Below, piece by piece: positions 5,621 through 64,000 of a stretch of 64,000 bases of DNA. This DNA is from Ampullaceana balthica. Its lineage: Eukaryota; Mollusca; Gastropoda; Lymnaeidae. Position numbers and translations under genes: made by a program. Within the stretch, counting starts at the first letter, position 1. The number at the start of each line of letters is the position of its first letter. Below the pieces are notes generated by a model that saw only the letters and a program-made list of their open reading frames with translations, made no database searches and was not told where the DNA came from. The stretch spans positions 1,664,124-1,728,123 of the forward strand of contig CALYLW010000015.1 of the NCBI GenBank assembly GCA_944989445.1, written 5' to 3'.

Positions 5621-5811
5621 ATTGTGACGACGTACAGGTAGATGGCCAGCACCAGGTACGGACTCATGGTCAGCATGTCGGCGATGGCCAGAGCGGTCAA
5701 GATGAAGTTGGTGGGTGACCGCATGTGTTTCCTGGTGAGCACAATGATGTTGAGGATGTTGGAGATGATTCCGAACACGCAGACGACGAAGGCGAAGTAG
5801 CCGTGGATCCC
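5621..5811 (-). CDS. GPCR exon encoding TM1-TM2, DMSR/myosuppressin-receptor-like (partial)
   Basis: This 191-nt internal exon encodes 63 residues plus two bases. On the minus strand it is preceded by CTCTACCTACAG (acceptor ending at 5812) and followed by GTAAGTG (donor from 5620). The translation starts GIHGYFAFVVCVFGIISN. It holds TM1 with the conserved Asn at exon residue 18, an intracellular LTRKHMRSPTN loop, and TM2 with LAIAD, whose Asp is the sodium-site D2.50. The HGY lead-in, NIIVLTRK and MRSPTN are typical of myosuppressin/DMSR-type peptide receptors, which are Gi/o-coupled receptors for RFamide-like peptides at the plasma membrane; that family call is from memory. An in-frame stop lies just upstream at 5833-5835, supporting splicing. 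It joins the exon at 9767-9934 in phase 0. The phase-2 exit means TM3-TM7 lie to the left, outside what I can see. The longer overlapping minus-strand frame at 5591-5890 is a shadow. Confidence 0.82.
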
Positions 5812-6310
5812 CTGTAGGTAGAGACATGGAAACTAGTTTAATCTTATCATCGGGGGTGTTGGCTAAATGGACCCGAGCCCTAGGAGGCACTTTTCTAATT
5901 TATGGACTCAAATTTCCGATTTCTATATCAAAAACATTAACTGTGCCACTGTTGAGAGGGTTATAACGTTGACAATAATAAAACAATGGATTCTGAGCAA
6001 CGTGAATCCTGCGACTTCCTTCACCCCCTCACCCCCAATCAAAAGAGATACCAACATATCATTAGTAAAGATACAGGCAGTACCATTTTACTCTAGTTCT
6101 AGTGAAATACCCCCTCTCCCGGCTTTTGCTTTGAAAATCCCCATCTTCCATTGAATGCTTCTTAGGAAAAGCTCTGACGAAGTTTGAGTATTTAGCACGG
6201 GCTCTGCGCCGATACTTTGTCCGGCTTACATTTGAACAAGGCTTCCGCCACTGGTCGTGTCCACGATCCGACTAATTGATTTTTTTCCGACTTGACGGAA
6301 ACCCTTGTCC

Positions 6311-6660
6311 GGGGCGGTTAGTTTCCCACCATGGCCCGGGGTGGCTAGTTTCCCACCATGGCCCGGGATGGTTAGTTTCCCACCATGGCCCTAGGGTGGT
6401 TAGTTTCCCCACCATGGCCCGGGATGGCTCGTTTCCCACCATGGCCCGGGATGTTTAGTTTCCCACCATGGCCCGGGATGGCTAGTTTCCCACCATGGCC
6501 CGGGATGGTTAGTTTCCCACCATGGCCCGGGATGGTTAGTTTCCCACCATGGCCCGGGATGGCTAGTTTCCCACCATGGCCCGGGATGGTTAGTTTCCCA
6601 CCATGGCCCGGGATGTTTAGTTTCCCACCATGGCCCCAGGGTGGTTAGTTTCCCACCATG
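6311..6660. repeat. 27-bp GC-rich minisatellite, about 13 copies
   Basis: Unit TTAGTTTCCCACCATGGCCC plus GGGATGG. It contains the palindromes CCATGG and CCCGGG. The 27-bp length keeps open frames with FPPWPGM-type peptides; these are not genes. Confidence 0.95.
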
Positions 6661-6837
6661 GCTGGGGGTAGCGATTAGAAGAGTTGCTCGGCCCAGTCAT
6701 GTCTGTGGCAACGATCCAAGTGATGGGAAATGTCAGTTATCTGGTGACAGGTTTATTTGTGGCCAGTGTGGCCAGATTGAGGAGTTGCTTTTGGGATTAT
6801 TGATTGGCACATCGTGAAAAGGTGAATGGTGTGATTG

Positions 6838-7145
6838 TGGTGACTTGTGTGACTTGTGGTGACTTGTGTGACTTGTGGTGACTTGTGTGACTTGTGGTGA
6901 CTTGAGTGACTTGTGGTGACTTGAGTGACACATGACTTGTGTGACTTGTGGTGACTTGAATGACTTGTGTGACTTGTTGTGACTTGAGTGACACATGACT
7001 TGTGTGACTTGTGGTGACTTGAGTGACACATGACTTGTGTGACTTGTGGTGACTTGAGTGACACATGACTTGTGTTACTTGTGGTGACTTGAGTGACACA
7101 TGACATGTGTGACTTGTGGTGACTTGAGTGACACTTGACTTGTGT
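6838..7145. repeat. Composite 10/11-bp minisatellite with ~45-bp higher-order unit
   Basis: Short units GTGACTTGTG and GTGACTTGAGTGACACATGA combine in a recurring order, so a longer unit of about 45 bp is itself tandemly repeated in the right half (6910-7120). Confidence 0.9.
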
Positions 7146-7210
7146 AACTAGGTTGTTTTTTTTAAATTACAGTGTGGTTTTGGGTGAGGTCGGGATGTAC
7201 ATTAACGAGG

Positions 7211-9321
7211 TCAACAAACACCTCATCTCCCTGGTAAACAAACACCTCATCTCCCTGGTAAACAAACACCTCATCTCCCTGGTAAACAAACACCTCATCT
7301 CCCTGGTAAACAAACACCTCATCTCCCTGGTAAACAAACACCTCATCTCCCTGGTAAACAAACACCTCATCTCCCTGGTAAACAAACACCTCATCTCCCT
7401 TGTAAACAAACACCTCATCTCCCTTGTAAACAAACACGTCATCTCCCTTGTAAACAAACACCTCATCTCCCTGGTAAACAAACACCTCATCTCCCTTGTA
7501 AACAAACACCTCATCTCCCTTGTAAACAAACACCCCATCTCCCTTGTAAACAAACTTCTTTTCTCCCTTGTAAACAAACACCCCATCTCTTTTGTAAACA
7601 AACACCTCATCTCCCTTGTAAACAAACTTCTTTTCTCCCTTGTAAACAAACACCTCATCTCCCTTGTAAACAAACACCTCATCTCCCTGGTAAACAAACA
7701 CCTCATCTCCCTGGTAAACAAACACCCCATCTCCCTTGTAAACAAACACCTCATCTCACTTGTAAACAAACACCACATCTCCCTTGTAAACAAACACCTA
7801 ATCTCCCTTGTAAACAAACACCTCATCTCCCTTGTAAACAAACACTTCATCTCCCTTGTAAACAAACTTCTCATCTCCCTTGTAAACAAACACCTCATCT
7901 CCCTTGTAAACAAACACCTCATCTCCCTTGTAAACAAACACCTCATCTCCCTTGTAAACAAACACCTCATCTCCCTTGTAAACAAACACCTCATCTCCCT
8001 TGTAAACAAACACCCCATCTCCCTTGTAAACAAACACCCCATCTCCCTTGTAAACAAACACCTCATCTCCCTTGTAAACAAACACCTCATCTCCCTTGTA
8101 AACAAACACCTCATCTCCCTGGTAAACAAACACCTCATCTCACTGGTAAACAAACACCCCATCTCCCTTGTAAACAAACACCCCATCTCACTTGTAAACA
8201 AACACCCCATCTCCCTTGTAAACAAACACCTCATCCCCCTTGTAAACAAACACCTCATCTCCCTTGTAAACAAACACCTCATCTCCCTTGTAAACAAACA
8301 CCTCATCTCCCTTGTAAACAAACACCTCATCTCCCTTGTAAACAAACACCTCATCTCCCTTGTAAACAAACTTCTCATATCCCTTGTAAACAAACACCTC
8401 ATCTCCCTTGTAAACAAACACCTCATCTCCCTTGTAAACAAACACATCATCTCCCTTGTAAACAAACACCTCATCTCCCTTGTAAACAAACACCTCATCT
8501 CCCTTGTAAACAAACACCTCATCTCCCTTGTAAACAAACACCCCATCTCCCTTGTAAACAAACACCCCATCTACTTGTAAACAAACACCTCATCTCCCTT
8601 GTAAACAAACACCTCATCTCCCTTGTAAACAAACACCTCATCTCCCTTGTAAACAAACACCTCATCTCCCTTGTAAACAAACACCTCATCTCCCTTGTAA
8701 ACAAACACCTCATCTCCCTTGTAAACAAACACCTCATCTCCCTTGTAAACAAACACCTCATCTCCCTTGTAAACAAACACCTCATCTCCCTGGTAAACAA
8801 ACACCTCATCTCCCTGGTAAACAAACACCTCATCTCCCTGGTAAACAAACACCTCATCTCCCTTGTAAACAAACTTCTCATCTCCCTTGTAAACAAACAC
8901 CTCATCTCCCTTGTAAACAAACACCTCATCTCCCTTGTAAACAAACACATCATCTCCCATGTAAACAAATACCTCATCTCCCTTGTAAACAAACACCTCA
9001 TCTCCCTGGTAAACAAACACCCCATCTCCCTTGTAAAAAACATCTCATCTCCCTTGTAAACAAACACCTCATCTCCCTTGTAAACAAACACCTCATCTCC
9101 CTTGTAAACAAACACCTCATCTCCCTGGTAAACAAACACCTCATCTCCCTGGTAAACAAACACCTCATCTCCCTGGTAAAAAAACACCCCATCTCCCTTG
9201 TAAACAAACACCTCATCTCCCTTGTAAACAAACACCTCATCTCCCTTGTAAACAAACACCTCATCTCCCTGGTAAACAAACACCTCATCTCCCTTGTAAA
9301 CAAACACCTCATCTCCCTTGT
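7211..9321. repeat. 24-bp minisatellite, about 88 copies, with forkhead-site core
   Basis: Unit core GTAAACAAACACCTCATCTC. The period is exactly 24 for almost the whole length, with one 2-bp loss at 8573. Two main subtypes, CCCTGGTAAAC and CCCTTGTAAAC, occur in blocks (CTGGT at 7231-7380, 8790-8850 and 9127-9180; CTTGT mostly elsewhere), showing local homogenisation. Minor variants are CCTC/CCCC/TTCT. Twenty-four is divisible by 3 and several frames lack stops, producing a 481-residue LVNKHLIS repeat frame on plus and FVYKGDEV or CLFTREMR frames on minus. With no splice or start logic and its location in a GPCR intron I treat these as non-coding. Confidence 0.97.
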
Positions 9322-9563
9322 TTCTGTGTACGGTGTTCGATGTGTAGACAAATAAAGTCAGAAAGTTGAACTTTTCTAGACTCCCCATTTCGGTGCCTCA
9401 ATCTAATTTGTCCGTTTGTTCGTGGCAGCAGTTGTTCGCTACTCAAATTCTGGATACTTTTAAAATGATTCTTTTTTTTTAATTTAGTTTATCTGAAGGA
9501 GGGGGCGGGGGTTAAATCTCAAACATGTTGCTCATATCACTCGAGTGACCACGACGATATCAT
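9322..9563. other. Unique intronic sequence
   Basis: Non-repetitive spacer between two intronic arrays, with a T9 run near 9472. Nothing recognisable. Confidence 0.5.
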
Positions 9564-9760
9564 TCATGTTCCCTTACAACATTTCATGTTCCCCTTACCA
9601 CATTTCATGTTCCTATTAACACGGTACATGTTCCTCTTAACACGATACATGTTCCCCTTACCACGGTACATGTTCCCCTTACCACGGTACATGTTCCCCT
9701 TAATACGGTACATGTTCCCCTTACCACGGTACATGTTCCCCTTACCACGATACATGTTCC
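9564..9760. repeat. 21-bp minisatellite derived from the adjacent splice donor, about 9 copies
   Basis: On the minus strand the unit reads GGTAAGGGGAACATGTACC plus two bases. The true exon donor at 9766 begins GTAAGGGGAACATG, so the array is a tandem expansion of the donor and its downstream intron sequence. Six of nine extra copies keep GTAAGG; the copies near 9610, 9634 and 9700 have lost it. The 21-bp length keeps the exon's reading frame open through the array (VRGTCTV-type heptapeptides). Confidence 0.9.
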
Positions 9761-9766
9761 CCTTAC

Positions 9767-9934
9767 CTGGTAATATTTGCTGAGTTTCTCCAGAGTGGAC
9801 TCGACTGTTGAGTTGGTCATGTTGACATCCCCAGGCTCCCAGGTCGTCATGGACAGGTCGTAGAAGTCCGTGACCAGCGACGTGTTGTGGCTGTTGGTGA
9901 CCGGCCAGTCCAGGCCGTTCGTGAAGTTAGCCAT
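9767..9934 (-). CDS. GPCR first coding exon, extracellular N-terminus (partial gene)
   Basis: It encodes 56 residues beginning MANFTNGLDWPV and ending EKLSKYYQ, then CAG|GTAAGG. There is no signal peptide, as usual for rhodopsin-class receptors. Four N-glycosylation sequons are present: N3-F-T, N17-T-S, N38-M-T and N41-S-T. The C-terminal LSKYYQ runs directly into GIHGY of the next exon in phase 0, a layout matching DMSR-type receptors, where this helix-like stretch precedes TM1. I chose the ATG at 9934; a longer frame from 9997 begins with GTG and crosses a likely splice acceptor, so it is not used. Ligand is unknown; an RFamide/myosuppressin-like peptide is inference from the TM1-TM2 exon. 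Confidence 0.75.
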
Positions 9935-44500: not shown

Positions 44501-44507
44501 AGATCGG

Positions 44508-44592
44508 GTTAGGGTCAGGGTTAGGGCCAAGGTTAGGGTCAGGGTTAGGGCCAAGGTTAGGGCCAAGGTTAGGGTTAGGGTCAGGGTTAGCG
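44508..44592 (+). repeat. Interstitial telomere-like (TTAGGG-type) tract
   Basis: GGGTTAGGGTCAGGGTTAGG and GGCCAAGGTTAGGG variants over 85 bp. TTAGGG hexamers are interleaved with TCAGGG and CCAAGG, so it is degenerate. TTAGGG is the ancestral metazoan telomere repeat. Confidence 0.85.
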
Positions 44593-61440: not shown

Positions 61441-61775
61441 CTTTTAGTTACTTCTCGTACATAAAGGATTTATAGTCAAAAACTTGGTTTTTTTACGGGT
61501 TGTTTTTTTTAGATGAACTTTGTGAATGTTCTATTATTGGGCTGATGTAAGCGCGAGGGAGAAGTGCTGCTGCATTTTGGTCTATTTAATAATGGTTGTG
61601 AATCAATGCGAGTGAGAGTTGAAATGTCGGATGTCCATTCGTTTGTGACGTATGTGTGAGAGAACGCAGATGCAGTCTTAATAAAATGAACCAAAAAACT
61701 TTTTTTAAAAAAAAGATGAGGCCCAGCTGCAGTGAGGAATGTAGAATCTTGCATGAAAAGCAGAAAATAATTTTT

Positions 61776-64000
61776 TAGTCACAAACTAAGTAGTCACAAA
61801 CTAAGTAGTCACAAACTAAGTAGTCACAAACTAAGTAGTCACAAACTAAGTAGTCACAAACTAAGTAGTCACAAACTAAGTAGTCACAAACTAAGTAGTC
61901 ACAAACTAAGTAGTCACAAACTAAGTAGTCACAAACTAAGTAGTCACAAACTAAGTAGTCACAAACTAAGTAGTCACAAACTAAGTAGTCACAAACTAAG
62001 TAGTCACAAACTAAGTAGTCACAAACTAAGTAGTCACAAACTAAGTAGTCACAAACTAAGTAGTCACAAACTAAGTAGTCACAAACTAAGTAGTCACAAA
62101 CTAAGTAGTCACAAACTAAGTAGTCACAAACTAAGTAGTCACAAACTAAGTAGTCACAAACTAAGTAGTCACAAACTAAGTAGTCACAAACTAAGTAGTC
62201 ACAAACTAAGTAGTCACAAACTAAGTAGTCACAAACTAAGTAGTCACAAACTAAGTAGTCACAAACTAAGTAGTCACAAACTAAGTAGTCACAAACTAAG
62301 TAGTCACAAACTAAGTAGTCACAAACTAAGTAGTCACAAACTAAGTAGTCACAAACTAAGTAGTCACAAACTAAGTAGTCACAAACTAAGTAGTCACAAA
62401 CTAAGTAGTCACAAACTAAGTAGTCACAAACTAAGTAGTCACAAACTAAGTAGTCACAAACTAAGTAGTCACAAACTAAGTAGTCACAAACTAAGTAGTC
62501 ACAAACTAAGTAGTCACAAACTAAGTAGTCACAAACTAAGTAGTCACAAACTAAGTAGTCACAAACTAAGTAGTCACAAACTAAGTAGTCACAAACTAAG
62601 TAGTCACAAACTAAGTAGTCACAAACTAAGTAGTCACAAACTAAGTAGTCACAAACTAAGTAGTCACAAACTAAGTAGTCACAAACTAAGTAGTCACAAA
62701 CTAAGTAGTCACAAACTAAGTAGTCACAAACTAAGTAGTCACAAACTAAGTAGTCACAAACTAAGTAGTCACAAACTAAGTAGTCACAAACTAAGTAGTC
62801 ACAAACTAAGTAGTCACAAACTAAGTAGTCACAAACTAAGTAGTCACAAACTAAGTAGTCACAAACTAAGTAGTCACAAACTAAGTAGTCACAAACTAAG
62901 TAGTCACAAACTAAGTAGTCACAAACTAAGTAGTCACAAACTAAGTAGTCACAAACTAAGTAGTCACAAACTAAGTAGTCACAAACTAAGTAGTCACAAA
63001 CTAAGTAGTCACAAACTAAGTAGTCACAAACTAAGTAGTCACAAACTAAGTAGTCACAAACTAAGTAGTCACAAACTAAGTAGTCACAAACTAAGTAGTC
63101 ACAAACTAAGTAGTCACAAACTAAGTAGTCACAAACTAAGTAGTCACAAACTAAGTAGTCACAAACTAAGTAGTCACAAACTAAGTAGTCACAAACTAAG
63201 TAGTCACAAACTAAGTAGTCACAAACTAAGTAGTCACAAACTAAGTAGTCACAAACTAAGTAGTCACAAACTAAGTAGTCACAAACTAAGTAGTCACAAA
63301 CTAAGTAGTCACAAACTAAGTAGTCACAAACTAAGTAGTCACAAACTAAGTAGTCACAAACTAAGTAGTCACAAACTAAGTAGTCACAAACTAAGTAGTC
63401 ACAAACTAAGTAGTCACAAACTAAGTAGTCACAAACTAAGTAGTCACAAACTAAGTAGTCACAAACTAAGTAGTCACAAACTAAGTAGTCACAAACTAAG
63501 TAGTCACAAACTAAGTAGTCACAAACTAAGTAGTCACAAACTAAGTAGTCACAAACTAAGTAGTCACAAACTAAGTAGTCACAAACTAAGTAGTCACAAA
63601 CTAAGTAGTCACAAACTAAGTAGTCACAAACTAAGTAGTCACAAACTAAGTAGTCACAAACTAAGTAGTCACAAACTAAGTAGTCACAAACTAAGTAGTC
63701 ACAAACTAAGTAGTCACAAACTAAGTAGTCACAAACTAAGTAGTCACAAACTAAGTAGTCACAAACTAAGTAGTCACAAACTAAGTAGTCACAAACTAAG
63801 TAGTCACAAACTAAGTAGTCACAAACTAAGTAGTCACAAACTAAGTAGTCACAAACTAAGTAGTCACAAACTAAGTAGTCACAAACTAAGTAGTCACAAA
63901 CTAAGTAGTCACAAACTAAGTAGTCACAAACTAAGTAGTCACAAACTAAGTAGTCACAAACTAAGTAGTCACAAACTAAGTAGTCACAAACTAAGTAGTC
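61776..64000. repeat. 15-bp satellite-like array, ~148 perfect copies, continues past the window
   Basis: Unit TAGTCACAAACTAAG. Every row from 61801 to the end repeats in exact 60-base register with no substitution or indel visible in 2.2 kb. ACT..AGT forms a short interrupted palindrome. Two frames without stops exist (SHKLS on plus, LVCDY on minus) but there is no start codon inside the unit. Confidence 0.98.

Follow-up and report, generated by a model that had tools for sequence, protein, structure and literature searches.

The first intron of a predicted GPCR gene in the snail Ampullaceana balthica opens with a 21-bp minisatellite whose first unit is the splice donor of the preceding exon. 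From the sequence, we consider it likely that this is a neutral minisatellite, born locally, which grew over the donor and whose exon-proximal copy is still functional. Arrays of the same layout are found at predicted donors of other genes, and this wider pattern across genes is the interesting part of our observations.

The window, i.e. the whole 64,000-nucleotide stretch of DNA that was analysed, corresponds to C15:1664124-1728123 within a 1.097-Gb assembly. Unless a contig is named, positions are those of the window (Table 1).

Table 1. Features of the predicted receptor gene and of the array at its exon 1 donor.
Feature	Position	Strand	Remarks
Coding exon 1	9767..9934	-	56 residues, ATG to CAG, phase 0 end; last part aligns with relatives
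Intron 1	5812..9766	-	3955 bp, 75.7% tandem arrays; other arrays at 6309-6662, 6821-7149 and 7213-9321
Exon 2	5621..5811	-	First transmembrane segments; acceptor CTACAG|GGGATC, donor ACAAT|GTAAGT
21-bp minisatellite	9565..9767	-	9.7 copies; unit GTAAGGGGAACATGTACCGTG; first unit is the real splice donor
GT of canonical donor CAG|GTAAGG	9765..9766	-	U1 duplex -11.8 kcal/mol
Decoy donors GTG|GTAAGG	9660..9745	-	At 9745, 9724, 9682 and 9661; before in-frame stop
Decoy donors	9576..9598	-	At 9598 and 9577; beyond in-frame stop
TGA closing the exon 1 frame	9605..9607	-	Inside unit 8

The receptor gene

The gene is predicted to consist of three exons and to encode a 396-residue gastropod GPCR resembling the FMRFamide, dmsr-1 and sex-peptide receptors, a name that is taken from its relatives only. 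Exon 1 (9934-9767) is joined in phase 0 to exon 2 (5811-5621), which encodes TM1, and exon 2 is joined to a third exon located beyond the window (C15:1658256-1657425). The predicted protein scores 140.2 bits against 7TM_GPCR_Srw (PF10324; curated Pfam cut-off, 22.2) and 73.7 bits against 7tm_1 (PF00001; curated Pfam cut-off, 30.5). Among the best 120 of 478 relatives, the highest score belongs to a Bulinus truncatus sequence that covers 90% of the query at 78% identity, identity nowhere exceeds 83%, and the named sequences are gastropod FMRFamide, dmsr-1-like and sex-peptide receptors. With regard to other genes in the window, none of nine non-repeat open reading frames matched a Pfam family at E 0.01.

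Sixteen relatives were aligned with the predicted receptor, to which they are 61-78% identical. Fourteen of them reach upstream of the exon 1/exon 2 junction, and all 14 run into the HGY of exon 2 without an insert; the other two begin at or after the junction. Among the further arrays of intron 1 is one with a 24-bp unit and 88 copies (7213-9321).

The array at the exon 1 donor

On the minus strand, exon 1 ends with ...TATTACCAG at position 9767 and the intron starts with GTAAGGGGAACATG at 9766. The first unit of the minisatellite, GTAAGGGGAACATGTATCGTG, starts at the latter position, directly after the CAG of the exon. According to TRF, the array has 90% matches. GTAAGG is found at the start of units 1, 2, 3, 5, 6, 9 and 10, corresponding to the real donor and six decoys, and GT has been lost from units 4 (TTAAGG), 7 (TTAAGA) and 8 (TTAATA). 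An earlier note on this DNA had described about nine 21-bp copies after the CAG, six of them with GTAAGG, which agrees with our analysis. The 14-mer GTAAGGGGAACATG occurs seven times in the 1.097-Gb genome; the reversed pattern, used as a control, occurs 17 times. Six of the seven occurrences lie within the receptor array, which is therefore local.

We propose that, in a genome prone to tandem duplication, a stretch beginning at the exon 1/intron 1 boundary, or close to it, underwent duplication and subsequent expansion, giving about ten copies within intron 1. The original exon-proximal donor, CAG|GTAAGG, would have remained the best and would still give the ancestral exon; the extra donor copies would be spliced out with the intron, so that the array could be tolerated. 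The layout of the array, the predicted gene, the private unit, the recurrence at other donors and a pair of paralogues with and without an array (see below) are shown by the sequence; we infer that the array is neutral, that splicing mostly uses the first donor and that the duplication took place by slippage or unequal exchange. The copied donor signals in the receptor intron are probably harmless, and the array can be explained without a regulatory or isoform-generating role.

That the minisatellite arose by amplification of the splice donor had been suggested in the earlier note. As far as sequence comparison goes, this origin is well supported: the relatives lack an insert, the unit is private, and other genes carry arrays of exon tail and donor (see below). 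The reverse order, in which the array came first and the exon was recruited later, is unlikely, given that relatives cross the junction without an insert and that the unit is private. Homology of the exon 1 tail to the 21-bp unit was not significant (p=0.21). As no exon tail is detectable in the unit, the duplication breakpoint would have been at or near the exon-intron boundary itself. In this respect the receptor unit is unlike the sister arrays, a point against the neutral reading.

It could be argued that an ordinary intron array came to lie next to the donor by chance and that nothing was amplified from it. Tandem arrays with a period of at least 10 cover 44.7% of the bases in the window (95 merged arrays in 64 kb), and a random base of the window lies exactly on an array edge in 0.3% of cases, within 2 bases of one in 1.5%, and within 10 bases in 6.2%. 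With array edges so common, the abutment of array and donor is, on its own, only mildly surprising, and the lack of a detectable exon tail in the unit also fits coincidence. However, the first unit includes the real donor hexamer, in register, and arrays of the same layout are present at other donors, where the direction is evident from the copied coding tail. We regard coincidence as improbable.

Two other arrays in the window may be mentioned here. A 12-bp array (GGGTTAGGGTCA) at 44506-44587 holds the telomere-like word TTAGGG and is distant from the contig end. An array coding for five-residue repeats begins at 61771, runs to position 64000 and past the window end, and is open on both strands for >740 codons.

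Reading frame and donor strength

The earlier note held that the exon frame stays open through the whole array, and that decoy use would lengthen the receptor by multiples of seven residues. In fact, the frame is open across units 1-7 and is then closed by the TGA in unit 8. The second claim survives for the decoys at 9745, 9724, 9682 and 9661, which, if used, would insert 7, 14, 28 or 35 residues. It does not apply to those at 9598 and 9577; they lie past the TGA, so their use would truncate the protein. The notion that the array was designed to be in frame fares no better, and we reject it. Periods divisible by three are found in 33 of the 95 arrays of the window, which is chance level. The 21-bp unit is itself open in two of its three sense frames, and several of the sister arrays at donors have periods that are not divisible by three (31, 32, 35, 40, 47, 55, 56 and 58).

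We calculated U1 pairing as the duplex energy against the U1 5' end. The decoys in units 2, 3, 5, 6 and 9 have a value of -8.5 kcal/mol and that in unit 10 has -4.8 kcal/mol. All are thus at least 3.3 kcal/mol weaker for U1 than the canonical donor (-11.8 kcal/mol), because most of them follow GTG, not CAG. In absolute terms, the receptor decoys are not weak in U1 pairing: a 5-kb stretch contains 443 GT sites, of which only eight (1.8%) reach -8, and six of these eight belong to the array.

These values bear on the alternative that the array acts as a splicing rheostat, with decoys extending the N-terminus by 7, 14, 28 or 35 residues before TM1 and copy number tuning the mix. The four in-frame GTAAGG decoys, at -8.5 kcal/mol, are stronger than the receptor's own exon 2 donor (-7.3 kcal/mol), and in human IFI6 repeat units are said to serve as donors. 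Against such a role, the frame is closed in unit 8, none of the 14 junction-crossing relatives carries an insert, a period divisible by three is ordinary in this window, and several sister donor arrays have out-of-frame periods. All things considered, we think this role unlikely.

Sister arrays at other genes

A 367-bp probe comprising exon 1 and the array matched over its full length at its own place and gave four partial matches elsewhere, in C217, C153 (two overlapping) and C86. In C153, a CH-domain exon (PF00307) is followed by 11 additional copies of its end and donor, AAACAG|GTACGTG, at a spacing of 30 bp. Seven of the 11 extra copies keep GT, and there is an apparent next exon downstream in the same locus. 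In some sister arrays the decoys are perfect including the exon tail, as in C1029, where all three copies are identical over 24 bases. Such decoys would be expected to compete with the first donor, which argues against the neutral reading.

A pair of myosin genes is informative about direction. The exon end and donor tctacctgatacag|GTCAGTTG are common to C208:313247 and C719:94266; they are present once in C719 and as a 32-bp array of 8.1 copies in the paralogue C208. The last C208 copy and the intron downstream of it match the single C719 copy and its intron at 78% over 78 positions. This is the pattern that would be expected from in-place duplication of a segment straddling the exon-intron boundary. 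The array may alternatively have collapsed in C719; in either case, the intron has received a copy of the coding tail. Two dynein paralogues (G000:C81:395096 and G000:C573:216861) have arrays with units of 42 and 45 bp, respectively, at what is apparently the same donor, ctcactgg|GTYAGT; these arrays either have independent origins or go back to an old shared one.

The fate of the decoys was examined in another 13 arrays or duplications at donors (12 from dynein genes and the one in C153). GT is kept in 38 of their 56 copies. Six of the 13 have one or more copies with a changed +1 base, a count above that of most positions and equalled by position -13. In the receptor array, +1 is altered in 3/9 copies and +2 in 0/9. 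The losses at +1 hint at selection against decoys.

Survey of donors and acceptors

Splice sites in three gene families were predicted from genomic sequence by weight tables, which weakens the case for the neutral reading; in the dynein genes, adjacent exons with compatible phase were favoured. A site was scored as copied if a 22-mer of 14 exon and 8 intron bases recurred with at least 17 identical bases within 250 bp on the intron side. The dynein heavy-chain family (PF08393) provided 113 matches with flanks, from which 60 donors and 81 acceptors were accepted. Among the paired dynein exons, 8/41 donors and 2/41 acceptors have a TRF array at the site or no more than 10 bp away, and one further acceptor has an array of 1.9 copies. 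At the eight donors, the array units combine 6-73 nt from the end of the coding exon with the donor and the start of the intron. In the 22-mer test, the paired exons gave 8/41 donors versus 1/41 acceptors (p=0.03), and single sites gave 4/19 donors and 0/40 acceptors. The dynein total is 12/60 donors versus 1/81 acceptors (p=1.5e-4); two of the 12 donor cases are single extra copies and not arrays (C936 and C2466).

Array occupancy in the dynein genes follows the same course. It is 0.18 at the donor (11/60) and 0.15 ten bases into the exon; on the intron side, positions sampled 20-300 bases from the donor gave 0.15-0.27. At the acceptor it is 0.02 (2/81), and thirty bases upstream of it 0.12. 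Dynein arrays cross donors as they do intron sequence, and mostly halt before acceptors. Intron interior windows, which like the paralogous genes of the survey are partly dependent samples, scored 28/189 and 25/189 in the 22-mer test. Paired donors do not differ significantly from the former (8/41 vs 28/189, p=0.48); acceptors compared with the latter (25/189) gave p=0.06 for 1/41 and p=0.001 for 1/81. Given that the donor rate is close to the interior rate, dynein donors look tolerated rather than targeted. The array pattern fits tolerance, as copying of exon tail and donor would spare the first donor. Copying of an acceptor region would disrupt the tract, the branch region and the first AG.

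Donors might instead be mutational hotspots where tandem duplications arise, for instance from transcription-linked breaks or from R-loops at boundaries. The downstream copies at 12/60 dynein donors could be read in this way, as could the fact that arrays at these donors extend 15 nt into the coding exon at 7/60 sites and 30 nt at 4/60. However, a hotspot is at odds with a paired donor rate not significantly higher than that of the interior, and with the kinesin genes, where donors gave 1/20 and interiors 14/80. We give this explanation little credence.

For kinesins, we took the first 40 of 127 matches that passed the rule (profile start >=15, end <=312, <=1 stop); the strict rule accepted 20 donors and 26 acceptors. 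Copies were found at one of these donors and one of these acceptors, and in 14/80 and 10/104 interior windows. Under a relaxed rule the counts were 1/36 donors and 1/37 acceptors, so that kinesins alone show no donor/acceptor difference under either rule. Since kinesin donors score lower than kinesin intron interiors, they seem less open than the interiors. For myosins, 20 donor flanks (end <=665, <=1 stop) were taken from 80 matches, and a nearby copy was present at 1/12 donors by the strict rule and 1/17 by the relaxed one. Kinesin and myosin donors together gave 2/32 (strict), with no donor excess in these families alone. Several myosin matches in C208, C331 and C719 lie in open frames of 594-846 codons, and neighbours share frame length; these are either long exons or open-reading introns, perhaps produced via tandem arrays.

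With acceptors drawn from dynein and kinesin genes, the strict total for all families is 14/92 donors versus 2/107 acceptors (Fisher p=0.001); combining dynein with the relaxed kinesin and myosin counts gives 14/113 versus 2/118 (p=0.0014). The asymmetry is carried by the dynein genes, and this, like the low rate at kinesin donors, counts against the neutral reading. We tentatively suggest, as a possibility to be taken seriously but short of probable, that donors are permeable to minisatellites and acceptors closed to them, that introns grow at their 5' end by copying of exon tail and donor (14/92 donors), and that the decoys are gradually disarmed, often at the first G. If this is true, the arrays would be natural multi-donor experiments on the 'first donor wins' rule and might also give rise to in-frame exon extensions. 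One array by itself would be a curiosity for which humans offer a precedent. Arrays recurring within a single genome would provide many natural tandem-donor constructs, some of them with several near-identical donors in succession, whose protein is preserved only when splicing picks the first donor. RNA-seq of one species could then be used to measure how donors are chosen and how donors and acceptors differ in their evolution.

Comparison with known systems

The human gene IFI6 (6-16, G1P3) reportedly contains a minisatellite with a 12-bp unit, described by Turri, Cuin and Porter in 1995, the repeat donors of which are said to be used in transcripts. The receptor array differs from that of IFI6 in its 21-bp unit, in that its donors are predicted, and in the presence of similar arrays at other genes. 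A title on a minisatellite with multiple splice donor sites in human 6-16 (Nucleic Acids Res 23:1854) is cited by PMC2915984 and PMC2572611.

Intron gain via tandem genomic duplication of AGGT-bearing exon segments, as presented in the review PMC3443670, is similar in that a coding segment bearing a splice site is duplicated and that this is tolerable as splicing restores the message. There, however, a new intron arises between two copies; in the snail, an existing intron grows at its 5' end. TERT VNTR6-1, a minisatellite with a 38-bp unit that is linked to splicing, resembles the receptor array in its location within a protein-coding gene's intron; unlike the receptor array, it is listed (PMC11830802) without mention of the host exon's donor in the unit. 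PMC12783039 and PMC3039753, judged from excerpts, deal with arrangements other than a donor-spanning array. Titles and the beginnings of abstracts, in a search in which subscription literature is mostly outside, contained no recurrent class of donor-spanning minisatellites, in snails and other molluscs or elsewhere.

Among the systems compared, the human 6-16/IFI6 minisatellite is the closest precedent for the receptor array. In the snail gene, and reportedly in IFI6, a short donor-like tandem unit with a period that is a multiple of three extends from the exon end into the intron, and in the snail gene the unit holds the exon's own donor and the array begins at the exon end.
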